From: Actinotalea lenta
GTDB lineage: Bacteria; Actinomycetota; Actinomycetes; Actinomycetales; Cellulomonadaceae
DNA length: 64,000 nt
NCBI RefSeq assembly: GCF_030586465.1
Contig: NZ_JAUQYP010000002.1
Location: 190,279-254,278 of the forward strand
Direction of reading: 5' to 3'
Part shown: piece after piece, positions 12,758 to 28,044 of the stretch
How the letters are laid out: each line of letters opens with the position of its first letter
Numbering within the stretch: the first letter of the stretch is position 1
The notes under the pieces: generated by a model
Database searches by the model: none
What the model was told of the DNA's origin: nothing
What the model saw: the letters and a program-made list of their open reading frames with translations, nothing else
Position numbers and translations under genes: made by a program

Positions 12758-13015
12758 ATGTCCGTCACTGTCGAGGAGCTCAAGGCCCTCACCGGAACCA
12801 CCGTGGTGGACGCTCGCGGCACCTCGTGCCCCGGCCCCATCCTCGCGGCCAAGAAGGCCGTCCGCGGCGTGTCCTCGGGCGCGGTCATGGAGGTCCTGGC
12901 CACCGACTCCGGGACGCTCAAGGACCTGCCCGCGTGGGCCAAGAAGATGGGTCACGAGTACCTGGGCCACTACGAGGACTCGGGCTACCTGCGCCTGTTC
13001 CTCAAGATGAAGTGA
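12758..13015 (+). CDS. tusA: TusA-family sulfur-carrier protein
   Basis: An 85-residue SirA/TusA-fold protein. The persulfide-carrying Cys24 is in the CPGP motif (VVDARGTSCPGPILAAKKA), followed by the conserved GAVMEVLATD strand and GHEYLGHYED. TusA proteins pass sulfane sulfur between rhodaneses, DsrE-type proteins and acceptor enzymes in the cytoplasm. ATG 12758 behind CTGGAGGGA. First gene of an operon with an MvhD-like subunit, a DsrE-like protein and HdrA/QmoC-like redox proteins, so it probably delivers or receives sulfur for that complex rather than serving tRNA thiolation. Confidence 0.93.
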   Translation: MSVTVEELKALTGTTVVDARGTSCPGPILAAKKAVRGVSSGAVMEVLATDSGTLKDLPAWAKKMGHEYLGHYEDSGYLRLFLKMK

Positions 13016-13020
13016 CGTCC

Positions 13021-13449
13021 ATGGGCCACGACGTCACCGGCGAGCCGATGCCCCGGATCCTGGTGTTCTCCACGAACAACATCTCGGACCCGGGCATCGA
13101 CCTCGCCGGCAGCCGGCACCTGCACTATCCCGCAACGGTCTCCGTGCTCCCGGTGCCGTGCTCCAGCGGCATCAAGCCCACCTGGATCCTGCACGCGCTC
13201 GCGACGGGCCAGGACGGGGTCTTCATCGCCTCGGACGGCGAGGAGTGCTCCTACCTGCCGGACTGTGCCGAGCGCACCGCGGGCATCGTCACGCGCGCTC
13301 AGGCGCTCATGGCCGAGCAGGGGTACGAGCCCCAGCGCCTCAAGATGGCCGCGGTCTGCTCGGTGTGCGCCGAGCCGTTCGCCAACTACATGCGTGAGTT
13401 CGCCGCCGCCCTCAACGAGCTCGGGCCTCGGCCCGTCCCGGTCGGCTGA
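13021..13449 (+). CDS. MvhD-like hydrogenase/Hdr delta subunit
   Basis: A 142-residue protein of the methyl-viologen-reducing hydrogenase delta (MvhD/FlpD) family, which relays electrons between a partner and HdrA through a [2Fe-2S] cluster. ILVFSTNNISDPGIDLAGSRHLHYP and VSVLPVPCSSGIKPTWILHALATGQDGVFIA match the fold. Cysteines are at 47, 76, 82, 113 and 116 (CSVCAEPF); the N-terminal CNWCSY cysteine pair of archaeal MvhD is replaced by STNNIS. In QmoB of sulfate reducers this domain is fused to the C-terminus of the HdrA-like part; here it is free. ATG at 13048 is an alternative start. Confidence 0.85.
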   Translation: MGHDVTGEPMPRILVFSTNNISDPGIDLAGSRHLHYPATVSVLPVPCSSGIKPTWILHALATGQDGVFIASDGEECSYLPDCAERTAGIVTRAQALMAEQGYEPQRLKMAAVCSVCAEPFANYMREFAAALNELGPRPVPVG

Positions 13450-13485
13450 CCCGCACTGCTCACTACCGGGAAGGGAACCCAAGAG

Positions 13486-13965
13486 GTGGAGTCGACGAAG
13501 AAGACGATCATCGTGTTCAGCGGTGATTTCGACAAGGTGATGGCCGCGTTCATCATCGCCAACGGCGCTGCCGCCATGGACGACGAGGTCGTCATGTTCT
13601 TCACGTTCTGGGGCCTCAACGCGCTCCGCAAGGACGCGCACGTGGCCGCACCGGACAAGACGTTCGTGCAGAAGATGTTCGGCGCGATGATGCCGCGCGG
13701 CCCCAAGAAGCTCTCGATGTCGAAGATGAACTTCGCGGGCATGGGACCCAAGCTCATGCAGCGCGAGATGAAGGCGCAGAACGTCATGTCGCTGCCCGAG
13801 CTCATCGAGACCGCGCGCGAGCAGGGCGTGAAGTTCATCGCGTGCACCATGTCGATGGACGTCATGGGCCTGACCAAGGACGAGCTGCTCGACGACATCG
13901 AGTACGCCGGCGTCGCCTCCTACCTGGGCGAGGCCGACGAGTCGAACGTCAACCTCTTCATCTGA
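13486..13965 (+). CDS. DsrE/DsrE2-like sulfur-transfer protein
   Basis: A 159-residue DsrE-fold protein of the DsrE2/peroxiredoxin-like branch: KKTIIVFSGDFDKVMAAFIIANGAAAMDDEVVMFFTFWGLNAL, then VKFIACTMSMDVMGLTKDEL. Its only cysteine, C120, is in the conserved ACTMSMDVMG motif and is the expected persulfide site. Met-rich centre (MMPRGPKKLSMSKMNFAGMG) as in this subfamily; a weak amphipathic helix could touch the membrane. Start GTG 13486 behind GGGAAGGG. DsrE proteins exchange sulfur with TusA, encoded two genes upstream. Confidence 0.9.
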   Translation: MESTKKTIIVFSGDFDKVMAAFIIANGAAAMDDEVVMFFTFWGLNALRKDAHVAAPDKTFVQKMFGAMMPRGPKKLSMSKMNFAGMGPKLMQREMKAQNVMSLPELIETAREQGVKFIACTMSMDVMGLTKDELLDDIEYAGVASYLGEADESNVNLFI

Positions 13966-13993
13966 GCCTGCTGGCGAGAGACGGAGCCACTCG

Positions 13994-16732
13994 ATGGACT
14001 ACGACGTCCTGGTGATCGGGAGCGGGATCGGCGGCATGGAGTCCGCGATCAAGCTCGGTGACATGGGCCACAAGGTGCTGCTGGTCGAGAAGGAGGCCAG
14101 CGTCGGCGGACGGATGATCCTGCTGTCCAAGGTCTTCCCGACGCTCGACTGCGCGAGCTGCATCTCCGGCCCGAAGATGTCCTCGACGATCAACCACCCG
14201 AACATCACCACGAAGACGTACTCCGAGGTCACGGGGATCAAGCGTCGGCCGGACGGACGCTTCACCGCGAGCGTGAAGGAGAAGTCGACGTTCGTGGACT
14301 GGGCGGCCTGCACCGGGTGCAGCGACTGCCAGACCGCGTGCACCGTCGCAGTACCTGACGAGTTCAACGCCGACCTCGCCGCACGCCGGGCCGCCTACAT
14401 CGCGTTCCCGCAGGCGGTTCCGAAGAAGGCCGTGCTCGACCGGGAGGGCACGTCGCCGTGCATCGGCGCCTGCCCGGCCGGCATCAAGGCGCACGGCTAC
14501 GTCTCGCTGGTGCGGTCCGGCAAGGACGAGGAGGCGTTCCAGCTGGTGCTGGACGCCACGCCGCTGGTCGGCACGCTCGGGCGGGCCTGCTACGCGCCCT
14601 GCGAGTCCGAGTGCACCCGGACCAAGCTCGAGGGTCCGGTGCCGATCCGGCTGATCAAGCGGTTCGCCGCGGACCAGCACTACGCCGCGCACGGCGAGAC
14701 GCCGTCCGGCCCGGCCGTCGAGGTCGCCGCGCCCAACGGCAAGAGGGTCGCCGTGGTCGGCTCCGGGCCCGCCGGTCTGACCGCCGCCTGGCAGCTCGCC
14801 CGCCAGGGGTACCAGGTCACGATCTTCGAGAAGCGCTCACAGCCGGGCGGGTTCCTGCGTCACGCGATCCCGTCCTACCGCCTGCCGCACGAGGTGGTCG
14901 ACGCGGACATCGCGAACCTCACCTCGATCGGCGTCGAGATCGAGTGCGACGCGAAGATCGACGACCTCGCCGCGCTCAAGGACTCCGGCTACGACGCCGT
15001 CGTGGTGGCCACCGGCACCCAGCACGCCACCCCGATGAACGTCCCGAACGAGGACGCCGCCGGGTCGGTCAACGGTCTGGACTTCCTCGCCGACGTCGCG
15101 AACGACAACGCGCCGGACCTCACGGGCAAGCGCGTCGTCGTGGTCGGCGGCGGCAACGTCGCGATGGACGCCGCGCGCGTCTCGCTGCGCCTGGGCGCGG
15201 CGGACGTCAAGGTCGTCTACCGCCGCACGCGTGCCGAGATGCCCGCGCACCACGTCGAGGCCGACGACGCCGAGGCCGAGGGGGCCCGGTTCGAGTTCCT
15301 GGTCACCCCGCTCGAGGTGCTCGCCACCGACGGGCACGTCACCGGCGTCCGGCTGCAGAAGATGCGGCTGGGCGAGCCCGACGCGTCGGGACGCCGCAGC
15401 CCCGAGCCGATCCAGGGGTCCGAGACCTCGGTCGCGTGCGACCTGGTCATCTCGACGATCGGCATGAGCCCGGACGCCACGCTGTACGAGAACGTGGTCA
15501 CCGTCGGGCGGGGCAAGCGCATCACGGTCGACCCGCACACGCTGCAGACCGAGGTGCCCTACCTGTTCGCCGCCGGCGACGTGGCCACCGGAGCCACGGA
15601 CATCACGCGGGCGATCGGTGCCGGCCGTCGTGCGGCCCACATGGTCGACCGGTGGGTCACCGGCCGGCCGCTGACCGGCTTCACCGCGCTGGACGACCGG
15701 CTCGACACGATCGGCCACGACACCGTGCTGTCCCGGCAGACCGCGTTCGGCCACCGCAACCCGATCAAGGGCGCCGTCGATCTCCAGAAGCTCCCGCGGG
15801 ACTTCCACGAGATCGAGTCGCCGCTGACCGAGACGGAGGCGCGGTCGGGCGCCGGCAGCTGCCTGGACTGCGGCGTGTGCTCGGAGTGCCAGGAGTGCGT
15901 GCACGCCTGCCCGGCGGACGCGATCCGGATGGACAAGCGGGACGTCGAGAACGAGTTCGACGTCGGTGCCGTGGTCGTCTCCACCGGCTACAAGCTGTTC
16001 GCGGCGGACAACAAGCCCGAGTACGGCTGGGGCAGGTACGCCAACGTCATCACCGGCATGCAGATGGACCGCCTCCTGGCCCCCACCCGGCCGTTCAACA
16101 CCGTGCTGCGGCCCGGCGACGGCAAGGTGCCCGAGCGGATCGCCTACATCTCCTGCACCGGTTCGCGCGACGCACAGGTGGGCAACCCGTTGTGCTCGAA
16201 GGTCTGCTGCATGTACTCGATCAAGCAGAACCAGCTGATCATGGGTGCCCTGCCGCTGGCCGACGTGACCATGCACTACATGGACATGCGGGCCGCCGGT
16301 AAGCGGTACGACGAGTTCTACGAGCAGGCCAAGGACATGGGCGCGCAGTACATCCGCGGCCGGGTGTCCAGGATCACCGAGAAGGAGAACGGTGACCTGG
16401 TCCTGCGGTACGAGGACACCGAGGGCACCGGCGAGATCGTCGAGGCCGAGTACGACCTCGTGGTCCTCGCGGTGGGCATCCAGCCCAACCGGGACGTCGA
16501 GCGGCTCTTCACCGACGAGCCGCTCGGCCTGGACGAGTACTTCTACGTCGCCGAGCCGAGCGAGGACCTCGACCCGGGGGTGACCGACGTGCCCGGCGTG
16601 TTCGTCGCCGGCACCGCGTCCGGCGCCAAGGACATCGTCGACACGATCGTGCACGCCGGGGCCGCGGTCGCGCAGGTCGCGGCGCACCTGGAGAAGGCCC
16701 AGCAGACCACGAAGGCAGAGGTCCTGGCATGA
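13994..16732 (+). CDS. HdrA/QmoA-like flavoprotein with inserted NfnL/GltD NAD(P)H module
   Basis: A 912-residue iron-sulfur flavoprotein. Residues 1-120 and 600-912 form an HdrA-type core: FAD motif GSGIGG (9-14), CASC (53-56), a Cys cluster at 107-117, a [4Fe-4S] segment CLDCGVCSECQECVHACP (623-640) and the HdrA signature CTGSRD...CSKVCC (721-739). Residues about 150-565 are an insertion resembling GltD/NfnL: CIGACPAGI, CYAPCESEC, a second FAD motif GSGPAG (256-261), an NAD(P) motif GGGNVA (385-390) and FAAGDVATG (525-533). Such a protein could couple NAD(P)H to the Hdr/Qmo electron path, with bifurcation possible. ATG 13994; overlaps the next gene by 4 bp. Confidence 0.88.
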   Translation: MDYDVLVIGSGIGGMESAIKLGDMGHKVLLVEKEASVGGRMILLSKVFPTLDCASCISGPKMSSTINHPNITTKTYSEVTGIKRRPDGRFTASVKEKSTFVDWAACTGCSDCQTACTVAVPDEFNADLAARRAAYIAFPQAVPKKAVLDREGTSPCIGACPAGIKAHGYVSLVRSGKDEEAFQLVLDATPLVGTLGRACYAPCESECTRTKLEGPVPIRLIKRFAADQHYAAHGETPSGPAVEVAAPNGKRVAVVGSGPAGLTAAWQLARQGYQVTIFEKRSQPGGFLRHAIPSYRLPHEVVDADIANLTSIGVEIECDAKIDDLAALKDSGYDAVVVATGTQHATPMNVPNEDAAGSVNGLDFLADVANDNAPDLTGKRVVVVGGGNVAMDAARVSLRLGAADVKVVYRRTRAEMPAHHVEADDAEAEGARFEFLVTPLEVLATDGHVTGVRLQKMRLGEPDASGRRSPEPIQGSETSVACDLVISTIGMSPDATLYENVVTVGRGKRITVDPHTLQTEVPYLFAAGDVATGATDITRAIGAGRRAAHMVDRWVTGRPLTGFTALDDRLDTIGHDTVLSRQTAFGHRNPIKGAVDLQKLPRDFHEIESPLTETEARSGAGSCLDCGVCSECQECVHACPADAIRMDKRDVENEFDVGAVVVSTGYKLFAADNKPEYGWGRYANVITGMQMDRLLAPTRPFNTVLRPGDGKVPERIAYISCTGSRDAQVGNPLCSKVCCMYSIKQNQLIMGALPLADVTMHYMDMRAAGKRYDEFYEQAKDMGAQYIRGRVSRITEKENGDLVLRYEDTEGTGEIVEAEYDLVVLAVGIQPNRDVERLFTDEPLGLDEYFYVAEPSEDLDPGVTDVPGVFVAGTASGAKDIVDTIVHAGAAVAQVAAHLEKAQQTTKAEVLA

Positions 16733-18480
16733 GCGAGAGCGGGAGCCCCCAGCGCCGGATCGGGGTGTACATCTGCCACTGCGGCGGCAACATCTCCGAC
16801 TACGTCGACGTGGACAGGGTCCGTGCGGCGATCTCCGCCGACCCGGACGTCGTGGTCGGCAAGACCACGCTGTTCGCGTGCTCCGACGGCACGCAGCACG
16901 AGATGATCGACGACATCCACGGCGAGGACCTGGACGGCCTGGTCGTGGCGTCGTGCTCGCCCAAGCTGCACACCACGACGTTCCGCGGGGTGTCGACCCG
17001 GGCGGACCTGAACCCGTACGCGTACACCCAGGTGAACATCCGCGAGCAGGACTCGTGGGCGCACACCGACGACCACGAGGGCGCCACGCAGAAGGCGATC
17101 GCGCTGGTCCAGGCGGGGATCGCCAAGACGCGCCTGTCGCTGCCGCTCGAGCCCCTGCGGGTCGAGACGGTGCCCGCGACCATGGTGGTCGGTGCCGGGA
17201 TCACCGGCCTGCGCACCGCGATCGGGCTGGCGGACATCGGCATCGCGGTCACGGTGCTCGAGCGCGAGTCCGAGGTCGGCGGCTGGGTCGGCCGGCTCGG
17301 GCCGATGTTCCCGCACAACGCCTCCGGTCGTGCGCAGATCGACGAGCTCATGGCGGAGATCGCCAAGCGGCCGACCATCACGGTGCTCAACAACGCCGAG
17401 CTGGTGGGCAAGACCGGGTCGTTCGGCAACTACACCGCCAAGGTCCGGCTGCGCACCGAGACCACCGAGGAGCTGCGCCAGCTCCAGGTGGGCACGTTCG
17501 TCATCGCCACCGGTGCGGACGTGTACTCGCCCGAGGCCGGCGAGCTCGGCTACGGCATCGACGGCGTGCTGACCATCAAGGAGTTCGGCGACCTGGTCGA
17601 CGCGGCGAAGGGCAGCGGGTCGCTGACCTGGCAGGGTCGCAAGGTCCGCTCGGTCGCGTACGTGTACTGCGTCGGCAACCGGCAGCCCGGCGGCAACGAG
17701 TACTGCTCGAAGTTCTGCTGCGCGGCCACCGTGCACGCCTCGATCAAGGTCTCCGACCTCGACCCGTCGATCCGGCAGTTCCACCTGCACCGCGACGTGC
17801 GGGCCTACGGCCGGTACGAGCTCATGTACACCGAGTCCCGCGAGCGTGGTTCGGTGTACATGCGGTACCCGGACGACGCCCCGCCGTCGGTCGAGCAGAT
17901 GCCCGACAAGCGGCTCGCGGTGACGGTCACCGACGCGTTGACGTCCCAGGACGAGATCACGCTGCCGGTGGACCTCGTGGTGCTCGTCACCGGCATGGTC
18001 CCGCGGGACAACGAGGACCTCACCACGCTGCTCAAGCTGCCCACCGGCGACGACGGCTTCTACAACGAGATCCACCCGAAGCTGCGCCCCGTGGAGACCG
18101 TCGTCGACGGCGTGCTCATCGCGGGTGCCTGCCAGGGCCCGAAGCCCGCCACCGAGGCGGTCAGCGGTGGCCTGGCGGCGGTCACGCAGAGCGCGGGGAT
18201 CCTCAAGAAGGGCTTCGCCGAGCTCGACCCGCTGGTGGCCACCGTCACCGAGAGCCTGTGCACCGGCTGCGGCGACTGCCTGACCACGTGCCCGTACGAC
18301 TCGATCGCGTCGTACGTGTGCGACACGGGCCAGAAGGCCACCATCGACCCGGCGAGCTGCAAGGGCTGCGGCGGGTGCGTCCCGGTGTGCCCCGAGGACG
18401 CGATCGACCTGCTGGGCTACACCAGCGCCCAGATGCTGGCCGCGATCGACGGCCTGTCGGTGAAGGAGCCCGTGGCATGA
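16729..18480 (+). CDS. HdrA/QmoB-like iron-sulfur flavoprotein
   Basis: A 583-residue protein with full HdrA layout: N-terminal domain IGVYICHCGGNISDYVD, FAD motif GAGITG (155-160) with EVGGWVGRLGPMFPHN, the CSKFCC signature (326-331), and a C-terminal pair of [4Fe-4S] motifs, CTGCGDCLTTCP (511-522) and CKGCGGCVPVCP (544-555). Archaeal HdrA and QmoA/B of sulfate reducers share this pattern. With the preceding HdrA-like protein, the free MvhD subunit and the QmoC-like protein downstream it would complete a Qmo-type complex. No CCG-domain HdrB is encoded in the window. Confidence 0.9.
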   Translation: MSESGSPQRRIGVYICHCGGNISDYVDVDRVRAAISADPDVVVGKTTLFACSDGTQHEMIDDIHGEDLDGLVVASCSPKLHTTTFRGVSTRADLNPYAYTQVNIREQDSWAHTDDHEGATQKAIALVQAGIAKTRLSLPLEPLRVETVPATMVVGAGITGLRTAIGLADIGIAVTVLERESEVGGWVGRLGPMFPHNASGRAQIDELMAEIAKRPTITVLNNAELVGKTGSFGNYTAKVRLRTETTEELRQLQVGTFVIATGADVYSPEAGELGYGIDGVLTIKEFGDLVDAAKGSGSLTWQGRKVRSVAYVYCVGNRQPGGNEYCSKFCCAATVHASIKVSDLDPSIRQFHLHRDVRAYGRYELMYTESRERGSVYMRYPDDAPPSVEQMPDKRLAVTVTDALTSQDEITLPVDLVVLVTGMVPRDNEDLTTLLKLPTGDDGFYNEIHPKLRPVETVVDGVLIAGACQGPKPATEAVSGGLAAVTQSAGILKKGFAELDPLVATVTESLCTGCGDCLTTCPYDSIASYVCDTGQKATIDPASCKGCGGCVPVCPEDAIDLLGYTSAQMLAAIDGLSVKEPVA

Positions 18481-18731
18481 CCGACACGACGGAGCGGAGC
18501 CTGCGGGACCCGCGCGAGGTCATCCGCGAGGAGATGACCATGCACGCGGTGATCAAGGCCGCGTTGGCCGACGGGCCGTTGACCGTGCCCGAGCTCGCCT
18601 CGGCGATCGGCCGGCCGGCCGAGGAGGTCCTGTACTGGGTGATGGGCATGCGGCGCTACGGCCACGTCGTCGAGATGCCGGAGGCCGACGACGAGGGCTA
18701 CTTCCCCTACGCCCTCCCGAAGGGAGCGTGA
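18477..18731 (+). CDS. Small winged-helix-like protein of the Qmo/Hdr operon
   Basis: An 84-residue acidic protein starting in an ATGA overlap with the HdrA gene and ending one base before the QmoC-like gene. The middle, VIKAALADGPLTVPELASAIGRPAEEVLYWVMGMRRYGHVVEM, has the pattern of a helix-turn-helix or small winged helix, but its place between structural genes suggests a subunit or assembly factor instead of a classic regulator. No cysteines. Function unknown. Confidence 0.8.
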   Translation: MTDTTERSLRDPREVIREEMTMHAVIKAALADGPLTVPELASAIGRPAEEVLYWVMGMRRYGHVVEMPEADDEGYFPYALPKGA

Positions 18732-18732
18732 G

Positions 18733-19914
18733 ATGGCCACCGTCGTCGACATCGACCTGATGGCGGACGTGCAGAAGTTCGGCGCCGCGGACGTCAACGC
18801 GTGCTTCTCGTGCGGCAACTGCACGGCGCTGTGCCCGCTCGCCGACAACGACGCGACGTTCCCGCGCCGGATCATCAGGTACGCGCAGGTCGGGCTGACC
18901 GACGAGCTGCTCGGCTCGAAGGAGCTGTGGACCTGCTACCACTGCGGGCTCTGCTCGGAGTCGTGCCCCACCGAGGCCGACCCCGGGGAGTTCATGGCCG
19001 CGGCCCGCCGGTACGCGATCGCCTCCTACGAGCCGACCGGCCTGGCCCGGGTGCTGTACACCAAGCCCGTCATCGGCACGATCATCGCGGTGGTCGTCGC
19101 GCTCTTCTTCGCCGGGTTCATGCTGTCCCAGGCGCAGCTCGGCGGGATCGACGCGCCGCGGCTGGCGTTGTTCGACTTCGTCTCCAACGACCTCATCCAC
19201 TGGATGGGCATCGTCGTGATGGCGCTGATGTTCCTGGCCGGCGCGTGGGGCGTGGTCCGCATGGTCCGGGCGATCGGCAAGCGCGACGGCGTGACGCTCA
19301 AGGACACGTTCGGGTCGGGTGCCGCGTGGACGCGCACCGTGCGGGCGCTGTGGGACTCCGTGGGCGTCGAGTCGCTGGGCCAGAAGCGGTTCCGCGACGA
19401 CTGCCACGACGAGCAGGTGGTCGAGCCACTGTGGCGGCGTCGCTGGCTCGTGCACGCGCTGACCATCTGGGGCTTCCTGATGCTCTTCGCTGCGACGCTG
19501 ATCGACTACGGGCTCGAGCTGCTGGGCATCAAGGAGACCGGCACCCCGATACCGATCTGGTACCCGTCGCGCGCCCTCGGAACCGTCGGCGGCCTCGCGC
19601 TGATGTACGGCGTGACCGTGTTCATGCTCGGCCGGTGGAAGCGGTGGTCCACCTCGCAGGCCACGTCGCAGAGCTCGGACTGGCTCCTGCTGACCCTGCT
19701 GTGGCTGACCGGGTTCACCGGGTTCGTCATCGAGGTCGCGCTGTACGTCACGACCCCGCCGGTGTGGGGGTACTGGTTCTTCCTGGTGCACGTCGCGATC
19801 GCGATGGAGCTGCTGCTCATGCTGCCGTTCACCAAGTTCGCGCACGTCATGTACCGCCCGGTCGCGCTGTTCTTCTACTCGCTGTCCCAGCAGAAGCACG
19901 CCACGGCGGCCTGA
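18733..19914 (+). CDS. QmoC-like protein: HdrC ferredoxin domain fused to cytochrome b-type membrane domain
   Basis: A 393-residue protein. Residues 20-80 carry two [4Fe-4S] motifs of HdrC type (CFSCGNCTALCP, 24-35, and CYHCGLCSESCP, 68-79). The rest is a membrane part with about six helices (TIIAVVVALFFAGFML, WMGIVVMALMFLAGAW, HALTIWGFLMLFAATLI, LGTVGGLALMYGVTVF, WLLLTLLWLTGFTGFVI, FFLVHVAIAMELLLML) holding histidines typical of HdrE/NarI-like haem b proteins (LIHWMG, LVHALT, LVHVAI, FAHVMY). This fusion is the hallmark of QmoC, which exchanges electrons with menaquinone. It anchors the proposed complex to the membrane. Confidence 0.9.
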   Translation: MATVVDIDLMADVQKFGAADVNACFSCGNCTALCPLADNDATFPRRIIRYAQVGLTDELLGSKELWTCYHCGLCSESCPTEADPGEFMAAARRYAIASYEPTGLARVLYTKPVIGTIIAVVVALFFAGFMLSQAQLGGIDAPRLALFDFVSNDLIHWMGIVVMALMFLAGAWGVVRMVRAIGKRDGVTLKDTFGSGAAWTRTVRALWDSVGVESLGQKRFRDDCHDEQVVEPLWRRRWLVHALTIWGFLMLFAATLIDYGLELLGIKETGTPIPIWYPSRALGTVGGLALMYGVTVFMLGRWKRWSTSQATSQSSDWLLLTLLWLTGFTGFVIEVALYVTTPPVWGYWFFLVHVAIAMELLLMLPFTKFAHVMYRPVALFFYSLSQQKHATAA

Positions 19915-20022
19915 TCCGCCCGATCTCCGCGCGGGGTTGTCACGGAAAATTCACCGGGGCACGGTGGCGCAAACCCGACTCGTCCGCCAAACTCATAGGA
20001 CGAATCGAGAAGGGGGGCCGCC

Positions 20023-20115
20023 ATGACGGACCGTCGCAGCGACACCACCGACCGCGACCAGACCACCAGGGACCGGGACAACCTCGTCGGGAACCCCAAC
20101 CGGGTTCGCCTCTGA
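20023..20115 (+). CDS. Possible 30-residue charged peptide
   Basis: ATG behind a strong AAGGGGGG, 30 codons, TGA just before a strong hairpin. The peptide (MTDRRSDTTDRDQTTRDRD to NPNRVRL) is almost entirely charged or polar with an Asp/Arg/Thr-rich repeat-like centre and no hydrophobic segment. The placement between a gene end and a terminator supports expression; no family recognised. Confidence 0.45.
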   Translation: MTDRRSDTTDRDQTTRDRDNLVGNPNRVRL

Positions 20116-20262: not shown

Positions 20263-20799
20263 ATGGACGTCGCAGGGCTGCTCGCCGACGGGTACTCGAG
20301 GATCGCCGGCAGCGTGCACAGGGTGCTGCAGGACGTGGACGACGACCTGCTCTCGGTCGAGCCCGAGCCGGGCTCCAACACGATCGCGTGGCTGGTCTGG
20401 CACCTCACGCGCGTCCAGGACGACCACCTGGCCGACGCTTTCGGGCGCGGGCAGGTCTGGACGAGCGACGGCTGGGTCGAGCGGTTCGGGCTGCCGCTGC
20501 CGGCCGAGGACACCGGGTACGGGCACGGACCGGGTGAGGTCGCAGCGGTCCGGGTGGGTGCGGACCTGCTGGTCGGCTACCACGACGCGGTGCACGCCCG
20601 GTCCGCCGCGCTGCTGGACACGGTCGACGCCGACGCGCTGGACCGCGTGGTGGACACCCGGTGGGATCCGCCCGTCACCCTCGGCGTGCGGCTGGTCAGC
20701 GTCCTGGCCGACGACCTGCAGCACATCGGCCAAGCGGCGTACCTGCGGGGGCTCCTGGAGCGACGCACCGGCGGTCAGGAGCGCGGCGCCGACGACTGA
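20263..20799 (+). CDS. DinB-family protein
   Basis: A 178-residue four-helix-bundle protein of the DinB/YfiT-like metal-dependent family. The metal-binding histidines are visible as IAWLVWHLTRVQDDH and DDLQHIGQAAYLRG. Many actinobacterial members act as thiol transferases (mycothiol or bacillithiol S-transferases), others are unassigned; this one has the general actinobacterial (DUF664-like) look. ATG 20263 chosen because GAGGAG sits seven bases upstream. A possible -10 (TAGCGT) lies at 20213-20218. Confidence 0.8.
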   Translation: MDVAGLLADGYSRIAGSVHRVLQDVDDDLLSVEPEPGSNTIAWLVWHLTRVQDDHLADAFGRGQVWTSDGWVERFGLPLPAEDTGYGHGPGEVAAVRVGADLLVGYHDAVHARSAALLDTVDADALDRVVDTRWDPPVTLGVRLVSVLADDLQHIGQAAYLRGLLERRTGGQERGADD

Positions 20800-20814
20800 A
20801 ACTAGGGTGGGCGC

Positions 20815-21801
20815 GTGACTCTTCGCGTGCTCTTCCTCGGCGGTACCGGCGTGATCAGCTCGGCCAGCACGGCGCTGGCCCTGGAGCGTGGGATCGACCT
20901 GACGTTGTTCACCCGCGGCACCTCGGGCCGCCCCGTGCCGGAGGGGGCGAAGGTCCGCCAGGTCGACGTGCGCGACCCCGCAGCGCTGCGCGAGGCGGTC
21001 GCCGGCCAGGAGTTCGACGCCGTGGTGGACTGGCTGGCGTTCACCCCGGAGCACGTGCAGGCCGACCTGGACGTGCTCGAGGGCCGCACCGGGCAGCTCG
21101 TCTTCATCAGCTCCGCGTCTGCGTACCAGACGCCGCCCGCGCGACTGCCCATCACCGAGTCCACCCCGCTGCGCAACCCGTGGTGGCAGTACTCGCGCGA
21201 CAAGATCGCCTGCGAGGACGTGCTGATGGCCGCCTACCGCGAGCGCGAGGCGCCCGTGACGATCGTGCGGCCCTCGCACACCTATGACGCGTCCCTGGTG
21301 CCGCTGGACGGCGGGTGGACGGCGCTGGAGCGGATGCGGCAGGGCCGCCCGGTCGTCGTGCACGGCGACGGGACGTCGTTGTGGACCCTGACCCACCACA
21401 CCGACTTCGCGCGCGGACTGGTCCCCCTGCTGGGCGACCCGCGCACGCTCGGTGAGGCGTACGGGATCACCGGCGACGACGTGCTCACCTGGGACCAGAT
21501 CGCCCACGCCCTGGCCGCCGCGGCCGGTGCCGAGGCCCGGATCGTGCACGTGCCCTCCGACGTCATCGCCGCCGAGGACCCCGAGTGGGGCGCCGGGCTG
21601 CTGGGCGACAAGGCGCACTCCGCGGTGTTCGACACCACCAAGCTGCGCCGGGTCGTGCCGGAGTTCACCACCACGGTGCGGTTCGAGCAGGGCGCCAGGG
21701 AGATCGTCGCCTGGCACGACGCGGACCCGGCGCGCAGGCGGGTGGATGCCGCCAAGGACGCGCTCATGGACCGGCTGGTGGAGCGCTTCGCCGTGCGTTG
21801 A
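20815..21801 (+). CDS. NAD-dependent epimerase/reductase-like SDR protein
   Basis: A 328-residue extended-SDR Rossmann protein: VLFLGGTGVISSAST as the nucleotide-binding loop (G-G-T-G-x-I-S), FDAVVDWLAF, LVFISSASAYQ and YSRDKIACED (a YxxxK-type pair in WWQYSRDK). It resembles the CSP41/isoflavone-reductase-like atypical SDRs used on sugars or as RNA-binding proteins. A -10 TAGGGT at 20803-20808 lies six bases before the GTG, so the mRNA is probably leaderless. Substrate unknown. Confidence 0.82.
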   Translation: MTLRVLFLGGTGVISSASTALALERGIDLTLFTRGTSGRPVPEGAKVRQVDVRDPAALREAVAGQEFDAVVDWLAFTPEHVQADLDVLEGRTGQLVFISSASAYQTPPARLPITESTPLRNPWWQYSRDKIACEDVLMAAYREREAPVTIVRPSHTYDASLVPLDGGWTALERMRQGRPVVVHGDGTSLWTLTHHTDFARGLVPLLGDPRTLGEAYGITGDDVLTWDQIAHALAAAAGAEARIVHVPSDVIAAEDPEWGAGLLGDKAHSAVFDTTKLRRVVPEFTTTVRFEQGAREIVAWHDADPARRRVDAAKDALMDRLVERFAVR

Positions 21802-21894
21802 TCATCGGGACCTACGGCCGCCGCGAAGCGGGTGCCCGCTCCTGACAATGGCTCGGTGACCCGCGACGGTGCGGGCGTCGATCCCGGGGGAGGC

Positions 21895-23783
21895 ATGGAC
21901 CACCTGTTGTCCCCCACGCGGCTGGGTGGCCTCACGCTGCACAACCGGATCGTGCTGCCCCCCATGACCACGCGCCTGTCGGGCCCCGACGGTCACGTGA
22001 GCCAGCGGGAGGCCGCCTTCCTGGGGGCGCGGGCGCGCGGCGGTGCGGGGCTCGTGGTGGTCGGCCCGTTCGCGGCGAGCACCAGCCTCCAGGGCGCCGA
22101 CGGGCTGCTGCGCATCGACGACGACCGCTTCCAGCCGGGCGTGGCCGGGCTCGTGACCGCGTTGCACGGGGCCGGTGCCCGGGTCGGGGCGCAGGTGACG
22201 GCCGGCCAGGGCCGATTGGCGGGTCCGGGGACCGAGCCGGTGTCTGCCTCGCGGGTCACGACGCCGGACGGGCGCCGCTGCCGGGCCCTGCGCGGGGAGG
22301 AGATCGAGGGGCTCGTCGCGGAGGTCGCCGCAGCCGCGCGCCGGCTGGTGGACGTGGGGGTCGACCTGCTGGACATCGACGCGCGCGCCGGTGGCCTGGT
22401 GGACCAGTTCCTGACGCCCCTGTGGAACGAGCGCACCGACGCCTGGGGCGGCGACCTGCCGCGCCGGGCAGCGCTGCTCGTGGCGCTGGTCGTGGCCGTG
22501 CGCGCCGCGGTGCCGGGCACGCCGGTGAGTGTTCGCCTGACCCTGGATCAGCACCTGTCCGGCGGCCGGGAGCTGGACACGTCGATCGAGATCGCACGCC
22601 TCCTGGCCGGTGCGGGCGTCGACCTGGTCGCCGCCGAGGAGGGGGCGGCGGAGCTGCCCTACCTGGTGGCGCCCGACTACCACCAGCCGGCCGGCGCGCA
22701 CCTGGCCGCCGCCGCCCGCCTGCGGGCGGAGGTCGGGATCCCGGTGCTGGTCGCCGGTGCCACGACGGTGCAGCAGGCGGACGAGGCCATCGCCGCGGGC
22801 CGGGTGGATCTGGTGGGCCTGGGCCGGGCGCTGGTGGCCGACCCCGACCTGCCGGCGAAGCTCGCCGCGCGCCGGGGCCGGGCCCGGCCGTGCGTGCGCG
22901 GCAACTCCTGCCTGGACGCCGTGCGCAGCGGGCGTGCGCTGCGCTGCGCCGTGAACCCGCTGGCCGGTGCCGAGACCGCGCTCGCCGTCCGTCCGGTCGC
23001 GCGCCCCGGGCACGTGGTGGTGGTCGGGGCGGACCGGCGGGCCTCGAGGCCGCGCGGGTCGCCGCGCAGCGGGGCCACGTCGTGGACCTGTACGAGGCGA
23101 AGCCGTGGCTGGGCGGTGTGCTGGCCCGCGCGGCCGGCCCGGGCTTCCGTCCCGAGCTGCTGGACCTGGTGGCCTGGTACCGCGGCGAGCTGGCGGAGGC
23201 CGGGGTCACGGTGCACCTCGAGCGCACCGTGCGGATGGGCTCGCGCGTGCTGGCCACCGCGGGGTCGGTGGTGCTGGCCACGGGGGCGCGTCCCGTCCGG
23301 CCCGACATCACCGGGCTGGACCGGCCGGAGGTGCTCGACGTGCTCGACGTGCACGGTGCCGCCCTGGGTTCGCGCGTCGTGATGATCGGCGGGGGGACGT
23401 CGGGGGCGGACGCGGCGTTCGAGCTCGCCGCACTGGGGCACCGGGTGACCGTGGTCGAGGCCGGTGACGAGATCGCCCCGGGCGCGCCGGCCACGAGCCG
23501 GGCCGCGCTCCTGGCGGGGCTCGCCCAGCGTGAGGTGCCCGTGCTGACCGGGACGCTGGTGCACGCCGTCGATGCCGCCGGGGTGCACGCGATCGGTCCG
23601 GACGGTCGGGTCACGCTGCCCGCGGACAGCGTCGTGCTCGCCGTGGGCGTGCTCCCGAGCCGCGAGCTGGCGGCCGGTGGGGTGCTCGAGGACCCGCGCG
23701 TGCACCTGGTGGGCGACTGCTCCACGCCGGGCACGTTGGGCAATGCGATCGGGGAGGGATTCGCCGCCGGCCTGGCGCTGTGA
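21895..23783 (+). pseudogene. OYE-family NADH:flavin oxidoreductase / 2,4-dienoyl-CoA reductase-like, frameshifted
   Basis: An ATG at 21895 (GGGGGAGG upstream) opens an FMN-barrel domain of the Old Yellow Enzyme family (LLSPTRLGGLTLHNRIVLPPM; DEAIAAGRVDLVGLGRALVADP) followed by the cysteine region CVRGNSCLD...CAVNP. At the dinucleotide-binding motif the frame breaks: GHVVVVGA continues as junk, while the correct GPAGLEAARVAAQRGHVVDLYEAKPWLGGVLARAAG resumes one frame over. One missing G around 23031-23033 (GCGGAC for GCGGGAC) explains it. The restored protein would be 629 residues. One of the four [4Fe-4S] cysteines is already Gly (CVRG for CxxC). Either a recent pseudogene or a sequencing error. 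Confidence 0.85.
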
Positions 23784-23812
23784 GGCCGCATCGACCAGCC
23801 CCGTCAGGCGCC

Positions 23813-23826
23813 GGGTCATTGGTCCC
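23813..23826 (-). promoter_or_regulatory. DosR/DevR-like element of the hydrogenase promoter
   Basis: On the minus strand this reads GGGACCAATGACCC, the same GGGACC-N3-GACCC form as the site at 12508 and one base from the symmetric DosR box GGGAC-N4-GTCCC. It ends ten bases before a TTGACA -35 box. Inference from motif resemblance. Confidence 0.45.
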
Positions 23827-23836
23827 GATCGCCCTC

Positions 23837-23865
23837 TTGACATACCCCCTGGGGTGTATTTATGC
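23837..23865 (+). promoter_or_regulatory. Hydrogenase operon promoter with CsoR/CstR-type operator
   Basis: A consensus -35 TTGACA (23837-23842) is followed by ATACCCCCTGGGGTGTAT (23842-23859), which contains TACCCC-CT-GGGGTG, a one-mismatch copy of the tusA operator TACCCC-AG-GGGGTA, and then an AT-rich TATTTATGC where the -10 is expected. A repressor bound to the spacer would block polymerase. The hydrogenase genes begin about 100 bp downstream. Confidence 0.65.
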
Positions 23866-23961
23866 AGGTCAGACACGGTGCAGGTCCAGACCTTCGTCCT
23901 CCCCGCCCCGGCGTCCCGTGGCCCACGCTGGGCATGCACGCCGAGGTCCTAGGGAGGGCAC

Positions 23962-25107
23962 ATGCGGACGATGGGGCTGGCCGGGCTCGACGAGCTCGTC
24001 GAGGCGCTGGGCCGGGCCGGGTACGAGGTCTTCGGGCCCCGGGTACGCGACGGGGCGATGGTGCTGGCGCCGATCTCCGGGGTCGCCGACCTGCCCCGCG
24101 GCGTCGGGGACACCCAGGACGCCGCGCACTACCGGCTGCGGGACCGCGGCGACGAGAGGCTCTTCGGGTACGCCACCGCCGTCCAGGGCCTCAAGCAGGT
24201 GCTCTTCCCGTCCCACGAGCTGCTGTGGCGCGCGCGCAAGACGCCGATCGGGTTCGACGTCGAGGAGGCCGACGCCACCCCGCCCAAGCCGCGGGCCTTC
24301 CTCGGGGCGCGGGACTGCGACCTGCGCGCGCTGGCCGTGCACGACACGGTCCTCGCCTCGCGCGAGTACGCCGACAAGCCCTACCAGCAGCGCCGCGACG
24401 GCGTGTTCGTGGTGGCCGTCACCTGCGCCGACCCGGGCGGGACGTGCTTCTGCGTCTCGCAGGGCGGCAGCCCCAAGCCGCAGGCCGGCTTCGACCTGTC
24501 GCTGACCGAGCTGCTGGACGACGACGGGCACCGCTTCCTGGTCGAGGTCGGCTCGGAGCGCGGCGCGCAGATCCTGGCCGAGGTCAGCACCGCCGAGGCG
24601 GTCGCGGCGGACACCGACGCGGCCGACGCCCTGGTCGCGACGGCGACGGCGTCGATGGGGCGCACGCTGGACACCGAGGGTCTGCACGACGTGATGTTCG
24701 CCTCGGCCGACTCGCCGCACTGGGACACGGTGGCGTCGCGGTGCCTCGCGTGCACGAACTGCACCCTGGTGTGCCCTACGTGCTTCTGCACGTCGGTGGA
24801 GGACACCACCGACCTCGCGATGACCACGACGGAGCGGCACCGGGTGTGGGACTCGTGCTTCGGTGCCCGGTTCTCCTACATCCACGGGGGCGTGGTCCGG
24901 GAGAGCGGCTCGTCGCGGTACCGCCAGTGGATCACCCACAAGCTGGCCGGCTACCAGGACCAGTTCGGGCTGTCGGGCTGCGTCGGCTGCGGCCGGTGCA
25001 TCACCTGGTGCCCGGCGGCGATCGACATCACCGCGGAGGCCGCGGCGCTGCGCGCGAGCCTGCCCGCCACCGAGGAGGACCTGCAGACCGTGGGGGAGAC
25101 CCGATGA
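23962..25107 (+). CDS. hydB: [NiFe] sulfhydrogenase beta subunit (4Fe-4S dicluster)
   Basis: A 381-residue iron-sulfur subunit of group 3b hydrogenase, related to AsrA of anaerobic sulfite reductase. The N-terminal part (KQVLFPSHELLW, FLGARDCDLRALAVHD, VAVTCADPGGTCFC) is typical of the family. The C-terminus has two cluster motifs, CLACTNCTLVCPTCFC and CVGCGRCITWCP, linking the NAD(P)-reducing gamma subunit to the hydrogenase module. ATG 23962 behind AGGGAGG. First gene of a tightly overlapped beta-gamma-delta-alpha-protease operon. Confidence 0.93.
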   Translation: MRTMGLAGLDELVEALGRAGYEVFGPRVRDGAMVLAPISGVADLPRGVGDTQDAAHYRLRDRGDERLFGYATAVQGLKQVLFPSHELLWRARKTPIGFDVEEADATPPKPRAFLGARDCDLRALAVHDTVLASREYADKPYQQRRDGVFVVAVTCADPGGTCFCVSQGGSPKPQAGFDLSLTELLDDDGHRFLVEVGSERGAQILAEVSTAEAVAADTDAADALVATATASMGRTLDTEGLHDVMFASADSPHWDTVASRCLACTNCTLVCPTCFCTSVEDTTDLAMTTTERHRVWDSCFGARFSYIHGGVVRESGSSRYRQWITHKLAGYQDQFGLSGCVGCGRCITWCPAAIDITAEAAALRASLPATEEDLQTVGETR

Positions 25108-25931
25108 CCGCCACCGACGTCGCCCGCGAGGCGACCGCGCCGGGGCCGATGGCGCCCCGCCCGTACCGCGTCGTGGCCCGGCGCCAGGACACCCACGACA
25201 CCGCCACGCTGGACCTCATCCCGCTGTACGGGGAGCAGACCCGCTGGCGGTCGGGGCAGTTCATGATGCTCTACGCCTTCGGCGTCGGTGAGATCGCGGT
25301 GTCGATCTCCGGCGGCGCGCTGCCCGGTGAGCCGCTCCGCCACACCATCCGGGACGTCGGCGCGGTGAGCCACGCGCTCGTCACCTCGAGGGTCGGCGAC
25401 GTGATCGGCGTGCGCGGGCCGTTCGGTACGTCGTGGGACGCGATGGACGCCGTGGGCGGCGACCTGATGTTCATCGCGGGCGGCATCGGCCTGGCCCCGC
25501 TGCGGCCCTCGATCCTCGAGGCGGTGCGGCGTCGCGGGGAGTTCCGGCACGTGATCCTGCTCTACGGCTCCCGCCCCGGTGAGGGCTTCCTGTTCACCGA
25601 CGAGATCGAGGACTGGGAGCGCAACCACGGCTTCACGGTCCGCCAGGGTGTGCGCGCCGGGCTCGCGGAGATGACCAGCCGCGAGGAGTTCGACCCGCTG
25701 CGCACCCTCACGTTGGCCTGCGGCCCGGACATCATGATGGAGGTCGCGGCCAAGACCCTGGTCGGCAAGGGCGTGCCGGGCGAGAAGGTCCGCCTGTCGA
25801 TGGAGCGCTCGATGCACTGCGGCATCGGCCTGTGCGGCCACTGCCAGCTCCGCGAGGCGTTCCTGTGCGTCGACGGACCGGTCTTCTCCTACGACCAGCT
25901 CGTCCCCCTGCTCGCCACCGAGGAGCTCTGA
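25104..25931 (+). CDS. hydG: [NiFe] sulfhydrogenase gamma subunit (FAD/NAD(P)-binding)
   Basis: A 275-residue ferredoxin-reductase-like subunit. The FAD domain is visible in [21 protein letters not shown], the NAD(P) loop in [13 protein letters not shown], and a C-terminal [2Fe-2S] set in [21 protein letters not shown] as in dihydroorotate dehydrogenase PyrK and AsrB. It passes electrons between NADP(H) and the beta subunit. ATGA overlap with hydB, and TGATG overlap with the small subunit gene. Confidence 0.93.
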
Positions 25932-26746
25932 TGACGACCACGACCACCACGCCGACCGTCGCGGTGTGGAAGTTCGCCTCGTGCGACGGCTGCCAGCTGA
26001 ACCTGCTCAACGCCGAGGACGAGCTGCTCGACGTCGCCAAGGCCGTCACGATCGCCTACTTCCCGGAGGCGACCCGAGCGATGCAGGACGGCCCCTACGA
26101 CGTCTCGATCGTCGAGGGTTCGATCACCACGCCGGAGGAGATCGAGCGGATCAAGCACGTCCGTGAGATCTCCGGCAAGCTCATCACGATCGGTGCGTGC
26201 GCCACGCACGGCGGCATCCAGGCGCTGCGCAACTACGCCGACGTCGAGGAGTACACCAGCTACGTCTACGCGAGCCCCGAGTTCATCGACACGCTGGAGA
26301 CCTCCACCCCGATCTCCGAGCACGTGCACGTCGACTTCGAGCTGCGCGGCTGCCCGGTGGACAAGTACCAGCTGGTCGAGGTGATCTCGGCTTTCGCCCA
26401 GGGCCGGCGTCCACGGATCCCCACCTACAGCGTGTGCGTCGAGTGCAAGCGGGCCGGCAACATCTGCGTCCCGGTCGCGCAGGGCACCCCGTGTCTCGGC
26501 CCCGTGACCCAGGCGGGTTGCGGAGCGATCTGCCCGTCGTTCAACCGCGGGTGCTACGCCTGCTTCGGGCCCCAGGACTCGCAGAACTGTCACGGTATGG
26601 CGGATCGGCTCATGGCCCTCGGCATGACCACCGAGGAGATGACCCGGGCCTACCGGACGTTCAACGCGACGTGTGAGCCGTTCCAGGCCGAGAGCCTGCG
26701 GCACGAGCGCGCCCGCAAGGCCGGCGCGGAGGAGGTTGAGGCATGA
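25931..26746 (+). CDS. hydD: [NiFe] hydrogenase small (delta) subunit, group 3b
   Basis: A 271-residue electron-transfer subunit. The proximal cluster motif [10 protein letters not shown] is near residue 17, with IGACATHGG and RGCPVDKYQ completing it; medial and distal clusters are in [12 protein letters not shown] and [27 protein letters not shown]. There is no twin-arginine signal, so the enzyme is cytoplasmic. Partner of the catalytic subunit encoded next, with which it overlaps by 4 bp. Confidence 0.95.
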
Positions 26747-28044
26747 GCATGCAGCCCACGAGCGAGCGCACGCTCTCGGTCGATGTCCTGGCGCGGGTCG
26801 AGGGCGAGGGCGGTCTGCACCTTCGCCTGCGCAACGGCAAGGTCGACGACGTCAAGCTGAACATCTTCGAGCCGCCGCGGTTCTACGAGGCGTTCCTGCG
26901 CGGGCGGGCGATGACCGAGCTGCCCGACCTCACGGCGCGGATCTGCGGGATCTGCCCGGTGGCGTACCAGTTCAGCGCCTGCCTGGCGATCGAGGACGCG
27001 TGCGGCGTGACCGTGCCGGACTCGGTGCGCGCGCTGCGCCGGCTGCTGTACTGCGGCGAGTGGATCGAGTCCCAGACGCTGCACATCTACATGCTGCACG
27101 CGCCGGACTTCCTGGGGTACGCGGGCGCCATCGAGATGGCCAAGGACCACGGCGCCGCCGTCGAGCGCGGGCTGAGCATGAAGAAGGCCGGCAATGCCCT
27201 GATGACCCTGGTGGGCGGTCGATCCGTGCACCCGGTGAACACCAAGATCGGCGGCTTCTACAAGATGCCCTCCGTGCAGGACATGAAGGCGCTGCGTCCG
27301 GCGATCGCCCAGGGGCTCGAGGACGCGCTGGAGACCGTGAAGCTGGTCTCGACGTTCGAGTTCCCGGACTTCGAGCGGCCCTACCTGTACCTCTCGCTGC
27401 GGCCTGAGGAGGGCTACCCGATCGAGGGCGGCCGGGTGGTCACCAGCCGTGGGGACAACTGGGACGTGCAGGAGTTCACCCAGCACATCGAGGAGGTGCA
27501 CGTCGCGCAGTCCAACGCGCTGCACGGCCTCCTGGACGGCGAGCCGTACGTCGTCGGCCCGCTGGCCCGCTACTCGCTGAACTTCGACCGGCTCTCGCCC
27601 ATGGCCCAGCAGGCCGCGCGTGAGGCGGGGCTGGGGGAGACCTGCTACAACCCGTTCAAGTCGATCATCGTGCGCGCGGTGGAGACCGTCGAGGCGTTCC
27701 ACGAAGCGCTGCGGATCATCGACGCGTGGACGGACGGTCTCGAGCCGTCGGTACCGGTGGTGCCGCGCGTCGGCGAGGGCTTCGGTGCGACCGAGGCGCC
27801 GCGCGGGGTCTGCTTCCACCGGTACAAGATCGACGAGACCGGTCTGGTGACGGACGCGCAGATCGTGCCGCCGACGTCGCAGAACCAGCCGAGCATCGAG
27901 GCCGACCTGCGCGAGCTCGCGCAGGAGTGGATGTGGATGTCGGACGAGGACCTGACGCTGCGCGCCGAGGTCGCGATCCGCAACTACGACCCGTGCATCT
28001 CGTGCTCGGTGCACTTCCTCAACCTCACGGTGGACCGGGGGTGA
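26743..28044 (+). CDS. hydA: [NiFe] hydrogenase large (catalytic alpha) subunit, group 3b
   Basis: A 433-residue catalytic subunit. The nickel-iron ligands are in the L1 motif RICGICPVA (C68, C71) and L2 motif DPCISC (C418, C421). After the L2 histidine (SVH) a nine-residue tail, FLNLTVDRG, would be removed by the endopeptidase encoded immediately downstream, so the precursor needs maturation. L1/L2 forms and the four-subunit order beta-gamma-delta-alpha identify group 3b bidirectional NADP-linked hydrogenase, a class that can also reduce sulfur or polysulfide to H2S. In other actinobacteria this class evolves H2 during hypoxia. Confidence 0.96.

Follow-up and report, generated by a model that had tools for sequence, protein, structure and literature searches.

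We analysed a window of 64,000 nucleotides from Actinotalea lenta (Cellulomonadaceae), which lies on contig 2 of an assembly of 3.31 Mb in 3 contigs. In this window, an operon of seven genes (12758-19914, plus strand), separated by short gaps or overlapping, encodes the sulfur carrier TusA, MvhD, DsrE2, two HdrA-like flavoproteins (HdrA1 and HdrA2), a small winged-helix protein and a QmoC-like protein (Table 1). Pfam scans and translations recovered every gene named in a first-pass annotation of the window, from tusA to the HdrC-cytochrome fusion; an NfnB/GltD-type insert in HdrA1 and a cysteine-less TusA-like gene upstream of the operon had been overlooked. On balance, we favour the view that the operon encodes a Qmo-like complex induced by persulfide, linked to NADPH and menaquinone, and acting, probably reductively, on the sulfane sulfur of TusA and DsrE2.

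The seven-gene operon and its composite HdrA1

HdrA1 is a protein of 912 aa with an insert of some 470 residues (about 150-622). Its residues 2-149 and 628-903 align to residues 143-289 and 292-569, respectively, of the same methanogen HdrA chain (9sfi_A), and the stretch at about 153-635 matches NfnB, StnB and GltD in Pfam (Fer4_20, Pyr_redox_2), in PDB sequences and in PDB folds. Because both flanks align to a single HdrA chain with an NfnB-like stretch between them, HdrA1 is an HdrA in which an NADP(H)-type module is inserted at one point. The YRR motif, which in NfnB holds the phosphate of NADP(H) according to the accessible part of PMC7596348, lies at 409-411 and was found in 56 of 69 HdrA1 rows. 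All of the 50 fold matches listed for HdrA1 belong to Nfn/Stn, GltD-type or dihydropyrimidine dehydrogenase chains. The mean predicted local distance difference test score (pLDDT) of its AlphaFold model is 71, with weak HdrA flanks, and the packing of the domains was therefore left uninterpreted.

We scanned the C-terminal part of HdrA1 against a species-genome collection and kept the best 80 of 154 relatives (the 80 loci). Related operons were found in records titled Actinomycetota, Chloroflexi and Bacillota: 25 of the 80 loci are titled Chloroflexi, 8 Bacillota/Clostridia and 47 otherwise (mostly Actinomycetota), these phyla being read from record titles, which for metagenome-assembled genomes (MAGs) do not prove the phylum. 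Loci are numbered with L and genomes with G (G000 is the A. lenta genome, G539 corresponds to L050, and L034 and L054 belong to one genome). We also examined nine carriers of the operon, i.e. A. lenta and eight others; six of these eight recur among the 80 loci (L050, L051, L054, L061, L062 and L083), hence the two sets overlap and do not count as independent. L061 is titled Proteobacteria but is equal in length (8,523 bases) to a contig of G428, a genome placed in the same family as A. lenta; mislabelling or mis-binning of this MAG contig is the probable cause. Carriers whose record bears no MAG mark include Actinotalea sp. M2MS4P-6 and Cellulomonas sp. SG140. The MvhD/FlpD protein was detected in 8 of 200 genomes of a family sample (A. 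lenta included) and in 3 of 394 genomes of a class sample, two of them above the cut-off, one being A. lenta itself.

The seven genes stand in identical order in all eight other carriers, one QmoC being truncated at a contig end. The full gene order of the window was found in 28 of the 80 loci, the others being without dsrE2, having it moved, or ending with the contig. The gene tusA precedes mvhD in all 65 loci holding both, and the NfnB module lies between both HdrA flanks in all 71 loci that have them. Moreover, Cys24 of TusA is kept in 65/65 aligned rows, Cys120 of DsrE2 in 52/52 and five Cys of MvhD in 64/64 (for the FlpD scan a longer frame, 12826-13449, was used; the gene is taken as 13021-13449). 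HdrA1 and HdrA2 likewise have conserved Cys motifs. In QmoC, every aligned row (61/61) keeps the eight Cys of the two 4Fe-4S motifs as well as four His, and these four His of the membrane part likely serve two b hemes. The NCBIfam model for QmoC (NF038018) is matched over positions 2-360 of 360 at 201.9 bits, below its cut-off of 300, and that for DsrE2 at 91.5 bits, below its cut-off of 210. HdrA2 aligns to methanogen HdrA, with the internal HdrA ferredoxin insert missing. In five loci (L118, L121, L123, L125 and L128), the QmoC-like protein is 26-31% identical to that of the window and dsrE2 adjoins; perhaps they represent a second subtype of the operon.

The small protein encoded after hdrA2, to which no family was assigned among Pfam or NCBIfam models, gave a structural model with a mean pLDDT of 89.7, and its best PDB matches were winged-helix proteins (E-values near 0.001). 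Its third helix is nearly invariant (37 rows), it has no conserved Cys, and its gene follows hdrA2 in 73/73 loci holding hdrA2 and qmoC. Given this near-invariant helix and this fixed position, we favour a structural subunit over a DNA-binding regulator, a plain transcription factor being the less favoured option.

The cysteine-less TusA-like paralogue is also kept upstream of the operon in two congeneric genomes (L036 and L038; 71 and 76% identity), where the Cys is missing as well, and is likely not a sulfur carrier. Finally, a plasmid-borne operon was considered and rejected: when 72,556 plasmid records were searched with HdrA1 by tblastn, each of the 13 matches obtained covered less than 80% of the query, and the 8 matches listed fall in query residues 148-721, mainly in the NfnB part.

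Table 1. Features of the window discussed in the text, with positions in the window
Feature	Position	Strand	Description
CRP/FNR-type site	12536-12551		TGTGACCTGGCTCACA, 4 bases ahead of the CstR-type operator
CsoR/CstR-type operator, tusA promoter	12556-12569		TACCCCAGGGGGTA
tusA	12758-13015	+	Sulfur carrier; Pfam TusA 75.9 bits; conserved Cys24 in CPGP
mvhD/flpD	13021-13449	+	Separate electron-transfer subunit; Pfam FlpD 98.6 bits
dsrE2	13486-13965	+	Sulfur-transfer protein, Cys120; Pfam DrsE_2 215 bits
hdrA1	13994-16732	+	QmoA/HdrA-like flavoprotein with inserted NfnB/GltD-type NADP(H) module
hdrA2	16729-18480	+	Second HdrA-like flavoprotein; two C-terminal 4Fe-4S motifs
Small winged-helix gene	18477-18731	+	No Cys; no Pfam/NCBIfam family
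qmoC-like	18733-19914	+	HdrC domain (two 4Fe-4S motifs) fused to membrane part; Nitrate_red_gam match sub-threshold
Cysteine-less TusA-like paralogue	12039-12434	+	Pfam TusA 47.6 bits; Cys of CPxP replaced (RGRRRPGP)
hydB promoter	23837-23856	+	-35-like TTGACA (23837-23842), then operator TACCCCCTGGGGTG (23843-23856)
hydB	23962-25107	+	Fe-S subunit; Pfam Fer4_22; sulfhydrogenase beta models below cut-off
hydG	25104-25931	+	FAD/NAD(P)H subunit, from translation; sulfhydrogenase gamma-subunit models below cut-off
hydD	25931-26746	+	Small subunit; Pfam Oxidored_q6
hydA	26743-28044	+	[NiFe] large subunit; Pfam NiFeSe_Hases; both CxxC motifs in translation
Hydrogenase maturation protease	28041-28520	+	TIGR00072 98.7 bits, cut-off 47.45
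hypE, hypD, hypC, hypF	28598-33576	-	HypE, HypD and HypF by Pfam; hypC by eye from translation

A CstR-type operator and its regulon

The promoter of tusA and that of hydB, the first gene of a nearby hydrogenase operon, have TACCCC-NN-GGGGTA in common. These matching operators had been pointed out in the first-pass annotation and are indeed present (TACCCCAGGGGGTA and TACCCCCTGGGGTG). The operator (TACCCCNNGGGGTA) resembles the published site ATACCn6GGTAT, to which a CsoR-like repressor of Streptomyces coelicolor binds and from which it departs upon sulfane sulfur, according to the accessible part of PMC7533328.

Eighteen such sites with at most one mismatch, ten of them exact, were detected in the A. 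lenta genome, vs. none for the backwards pattern, a weak control as it is not palindromic. The genes at all 18 sites were examined, and 15 sites precede genes related to sulfur/thiol redox or Fe-S proteins. These genes encode a thioredoxin reductase-thioredoxin pair, two further thioredoxins, a rhodanese with the CstR-like protein, a YgaP-type membrane protein, a Pyr_redox_2 flavoprotein resembling (by eye) a CoA-disulfide reductase, a rhodanese with an MBL-fold/rhodanese protein resembling persulfide dioxygenase (curated models below cut-off), another rhodanese, a rhodanese-domain protein with a lipoprotein-like start (its called start overlapping the site), a DsbD/CcdA-type protein, an Mrp/NUBPL Fe-S carrier, the products of the tusA operon and of two hydB operons, and an Nfn/Sud-type pair, the first gene of which is above the cut-off of NF004862. 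For this flavoprotein pair (L019; G000:C1 near 1023506), the operator lies about 130 nt upstream of the first gene. No sulfide:quinone-reductase-like gene was found at any of the 18 sites. In two congeneric carriers (L181 and L195), the operator stands ahead of a flavoprotein gene; the two flavoproteins are 89% identical to each other, and the best NCBIfam match of the one in L181 is a type III sulfide:quinone reductase, far below cut-off.

The CstR-like protein of A. lenta has the CsoR-family fold and two Cys, without the copper-ligand His of CsoR. Its best PDB match is 7mq1/7mq2, with both Cys aligned; these entries, deposited as CsoR, we take to be the pneumococcal CstR. The gene adjoins a rhodanese gene and lies between two operators. 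A CstR-like gene with at least 56% identity was found in all nine carriers; in one genome (L034/L054), an ortholog with 87% identity directly follows qmoC, within about 80 nt of its end, and in L052, L055 and L058 (44% identity in L058) a CstR-like gene is no more than about 0.5 kb away from the operon. The idea of sulfane sulfur as the theme of the locus, already present in the first reading of the window, is supported by the operator regulon.

The operator was found ahead of tusA in all eight other carriers, and the carrier genomes hold 8-22 sites each, vs. 0-5 for the backwards control. Among the 80 loci, 64 have enough DNA upstream of tusA for a scan. The operator (at most one mismatch) is present in 16 of the 35 loci not titled Chloroflexi or Bacillota, and in 25 of these 35 with a looser pattern, a count that is not independent because this pattern was set after ATGCCCC-type sites had been seen. 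Elsewhere in the same loci, the background is 0.003 (strict) and 0.007 (looser) sites per 400 nt. With 16 of 35 loci bearing a site against a strict background of 0.003 per 400 nt, the operator is more frequent upstream of tusA than expected by chance.

A CRP-like site precedes the operator by 19-20 nt (start to start) in the window and in L050, L051, L052 and L054. CRP-like sites were found upstream of tusA in 11 of the 64 loci, seven of which have no adjoining operator. This site is the one feature that could possibly support a role in hypoxia, as had first been suggested. Upstream of the operon, the Chloroflexi-titled loci often have an ArsR-type gene (a cluster over 17 loci, 14 of them Chloroflexi-titled); in loci without operator such as L097, L098 and L113, ArsR-type genes are sometimes accompanied upstream by extra DsrE/TusA genes. 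We do not call these ArsR-type proteins sulfur sensors, as their aligned rows have no Cys pair in common.

Two hydrogenase operons with the same type of operator

A complete hydBGDA operon with hyp genes had been described 4 kb from the tusA operon, and it does start 4.05 kb past the operon end. The best models for its HydA are ShyA (286.1 bits, cut-off 700) and HydA (252.4 bits, cut-off 880). Another hydBGDA operon of this type lies in a different part of the genome (L047; G000:C1:950001-970000, 4873-8982); it is 55-69% identical to that of the window and has its own CstR-type operator at 4754.

We considered whether the hydrogenase and the Qmo-like operon form a fixed locus, and this was rejected. 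Within the flanks available for the 80 loci, hydrogenase matches lie in only 2: L050, which is the congeneric MAG G539, and L089, where the HydA match is 39% identical. In the family sample, HydA homologs were detected in 13 of 200 genomes, i.e. in 6 of 8 operon carriers and in 7 of 192 non-carriers (P = 5e-7, Fisher test, with no correction for relatedness). In three congeneric carriers, the operator is present at five of six hydB promoters (two in A. lenta, two in G539 and one of two in G491); the upstream regions of hydB in G428 and G445 are cut by contig ends and stand outside this count. In the seven non-carriers, no operator was found within 400 nt of hydB at up to two mismatches (0/7), nor was one in the carrier G406. 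The seven non-carrier genomes hold 7-19 such sites elsewhere, where the backwards pattern yields 0-6. According to a tree of 16 HydA rows, both operator-bearing lineages are clades of congeneric operon carriers only, one member of the second lineage being without operator. From these sequences, the link between the Qmo-like operon and the hydrogenases appears to be one of co-regulation within one genus, not a fixed locus. Of the link as first proposed, the operator held in common thus stands in congeneric carriers, while the adjacency is not conserved; likewise, the two operons do mostly occur apart in relatives, but with a shared operator in the three congeneric carriers.

Proposed function, alternatives and known systems

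We infer both the direction and the chemistry of the Qmo-like complex from sequence. The products of the operon would form a complex attached to the membrane, and TusA and DsrE2 would bring sulfane sulfur, as persulfide, to its HdrA flavoproteins. Electrons of NADPH would enter via the NfnB-like module of HdrA1, and HdrA1, HdrA2 and MvhD would relay electrons among NADPH, QmoC/menaquinone and the persulfide held by TusA or DsrE2, which would be reduced to sulfide. The CstR-like sensor would repress the tusA operon, the two sulfhydrogenase-type hydrogenases and the Nfn/Sud-type pair; a build-up of sulfane sulfur would release them from the repressor, and H2/NADPH, persulfide and quinone would become redox partners. 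The CRP-like site beside the operator may act as a second regulatory input, and the co-regulated NADPH-type hydrogenases and Nfn/Sud pair may supply the NADPH pool or draw on it. Among the redox partners, NADPH has the low potential, menaquinone and sulfane sulfur both standing above it, so that electron flow from NADPH would be downhill; this direction is the more likely one.

Several observations weigh against this reading. Two of the 8 operon carriers of the family sample have no HydA, and the second hydB copy of G491 and the hydB copy of G406 have no operator. The operator was found upstream of tusA in none of the 23 Chloroflexi-titled and none of the 6 Bacillota-titled loci with enough DNA for the scan, even with the looser pattern. 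The backwards control reaches up to 5 sites in some carriers, vs. as few as 8 true sites. Three of the 18 sites in A. lenta do not fit the regulon (two are intragenic and one precedes a short-chain dehydrogenase gene), and the regulon fits at 13 of 17 sites examined in G539 (5 of 22 unread) and at 10 of 11 in G491 (8 of 19 unread). Copper repressors related to CstR bind similar sites. In addition, the YRR motif is missing from 13 of 69 HdrA1 rows. A Pfam scan of the operon proteins found no HdrB-type CCG subunit and no LbpA, and the lack of HdrB counts on this side too; the genome holds six CCG matches, all outside the window, four of them in two genes resembling (by eye) LutA and a large membrane Fe-S oxidoreductase, the other two being unread.

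The main rival is the oxidative direction, which we regard as rather unlikely: sulfane sulfur of TusA/DsrE2 would be oxidised toward sulfite and the electrons passed to menaquinone via QmoC and to NADP+ via the NfnB-like module, as an O2-independent alternative to persulfide dioxygenase. Elsewhere, carriers of the TusA/DsrE type supply sulfur for oxidation, and a cluster of six Chloroflexi-titled loci has a gene for a TauE-type exporter at a distance of about 7.5 kb from HdrA1. This reading is at odds with the lack of HdrB, LbpA, DsrAB or any other sulfite-forming enzyme among the operon genes, and with the co-regulation of NADPH-linked hydrogenases. Polysulfide reduction is an activity ascribed to such hydrogenases. 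The oxidative direction could further draw on DsrL, a relative of NfnB, which serves sulfur oxidisers of the rDsr type according to the accessible part of PMC7596348.

A second alternative is a relief valve, i.e. an NADPH:menaquinone oxidoreductase, possibly bifurcating, that would work under persulfide stress, TusA and DsrE2 handling sulfur traffic only and not being substrates. The NADP(H) module and QmoC would suffice for NADPH:quinone activity without a sulfur step, and no sulfur active site is evident. We nevertheless find it improbable, since tusA stands ahead of mvhD in 65/65 loci, and a carrier fixed over such a wide range argues for a direct role.

It is very improbable that the operator belongs to a copper regulon (CsoR/RicR), in which case the shared regulation would say nothing on sulfur. 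The site ATACCn6GGTAT does also resemble CsoR and RicR sites, according to the accessible part of PMC7533328, and the A. lenta genome has another CsoR-family gene (L005), which its C-H-C pattern and its best model (RicR, 137.4 bits, cut-off 175) mark as copper-type and which adjoins an apparent copper-ATPase gene (by eye). However, the CstR-like gene flanked by the sites lacks the CsoR His, the genes behind the sites include those for rhodanese, MBL/rhodanese and thioredoxin proteins, and no site with at most one mismatch was found in L005 around the copper-type gene.

The last alternative concerns sulfate or sulfite reduction. In the nine carriers, no match to aprA (TIGR02061) passed the cut-off, with weak matches far below it in seven; none of 14 control genomes passed it either, hence no positive control, and aprB was not searched. 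No dsrA match passed its cut-off, with weak matches in four and no control genome passing, hence again no positive control. These searches agree with the first-pass annotation, which saw a Qmo-like complex without apr or dsr, and hidden sulfate/sulfite reduction was rejected on their account. A displaced QmoABC serving an APS reductase or sulfite reduction encoded elsewhere is thus largely refuted and hardly credible, for although the QmoC model is matched over its full length, QmoC scores below the curated cut-off, MvhD is not fused to the second HdrA, and the nine carriers gave no such aprA or dsrA match.

Beyond A. lenta, we tentatively put forward a wider reading, which we hold to be possible but less probable than the reductive function itself. 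The operon would encode an undescribed respiratory complex of Actinomycetota, Chloroflexota and Bacillota, in which an HdrA with an integral NADP(H) module (by bifurcation or confurcation) and a structural winged-helix subunit would couple NADPH and menaquinone to persulfide on its carriers, for a Dsr-independent respiration of sulfane sulfur; in Actinotalea-type bacteria, the persulfide sensor would co-induce two sulfhydrogenases, with H2 and persulfide exchanging electrons.

Compared with known systems, the operon resembles sHdr sulfur oxidation (hdrC1B1A-hyp-hdrC2B2, lbpA, tusA, dsrE) in its HdrA-like protein with TusA and DsrE partners, and differs from it by the lack of HdrB and of a lipoate-binding protein and by the presence of QmoC and an NADP(H) module. 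In QmoABC, the MvhD domain is fused to QmoB; here MvhD is separate, an NADP(H) module lies in HdrA1, TusA, DsrE2 and the winged-helix protein are part of the operon, and QmoC scores below cut-off. The QmoABC complexes found in sulfate reducers and in Chlorobi (types I and II in the accessible part of PMC10504309) are alike in their two HdrA-like flavoproteins, their HdrC-cytochrome subunit, their MvhD component and a presumed menaquinone link. According to the same part of that source, type II Qmo is also found with or without Apr and Dsr, and its role needs experiments. HdrA/GltD-type fusions have been described as HdrL in Desulfobacterium autotrophicum, and, going by the accessible description (PMC2702500), HdrA1 is similar in that an HdrA is joined to a glutamate-synthase-like module for NAD(P)H binding and has mvhD nearby, whereas HdrL is described with a soluble domain structure and one copy lies beside dsrABC, in place of TusA, DsrE2, a second HdrA and QmoC. 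DsrL and NfnB/StnB, as far as accessible in PMC7596348, share an NfnB-type NAD(P)H module with the YRR motif, acting for a sulfur enzyme; in the window, this module lies inside an HdrA, with Qmo-like subunits as partners instead of DsrAB or NfnA.

The hydrogenase of the window is similar to the group 3b [NiFe] hydrogenase/sulfhydrogenase HydBGDA in its four subunits, gene order and [NiFe] Cys motifs, and its best models are sulfhydrogenase subunits; it differs in scoring below equivalog cut-offs and in being one of two copies in the genome, both with a CstR-type operator. To our knowledge, the role of group 3b hydrogenases with sulfur inside cells is unsettled. For the regulation, the CstR of Staphylococcus is reportedly a CsoR-like sulfane-sulfur circuit. 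The ScCsoR circuit of S. coelicolor, as given in the accessible part of PMC7533328, likewise has a CsoR-family repressor with two Cys, ATACCn6GGTAT-type operators and regulon genes of the rhodanese and MBL/rhodanese types. The regulon described here differs from both in adding a Qmo-like operon, two hydrogenase operons and an Nfn/Sud pair.

Thus, Qmo-like complexes with or without Apr/Dsr, HdrA/GltD fusions, NfnB-type modules for sulfur enzymes and CsoR-like persulfide circuits are already known from the accessible parts of these sources. The loci in the accessible parts of PMC6776052, PMC4378227, PMC9326234 and PMC12142623 are sHdr-type, Dsr-type or HdrL-like and do not correspond to the window operon. 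No earlier description of the gene combination was found in the literature searched, a weak negative as most subscription papers lay outside its scope. On the role of type II Qmo and that of group 3b hydrogenases with sulfur, the locus would offer a concrete answer, since within one genome, a sulfane-sulfur-type repressor seems to govern both a Qmo-like operon fed by TusA and two operons of the sulfhydrogenase type. If true, this would add a sulfur reaction that surveys based on dsr, apr or sox overlook, in settings such as fen, palsa, groundwater and a lab-scale reactor, which are among the record titles of the relatives.

As to the rest of the window, no RNA family at gathering score and no tRNA was found. 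On the minus strand, at 36411-40505, two adjacent genes encode DUF4012 proteins, each spanning the whole Pfam model.

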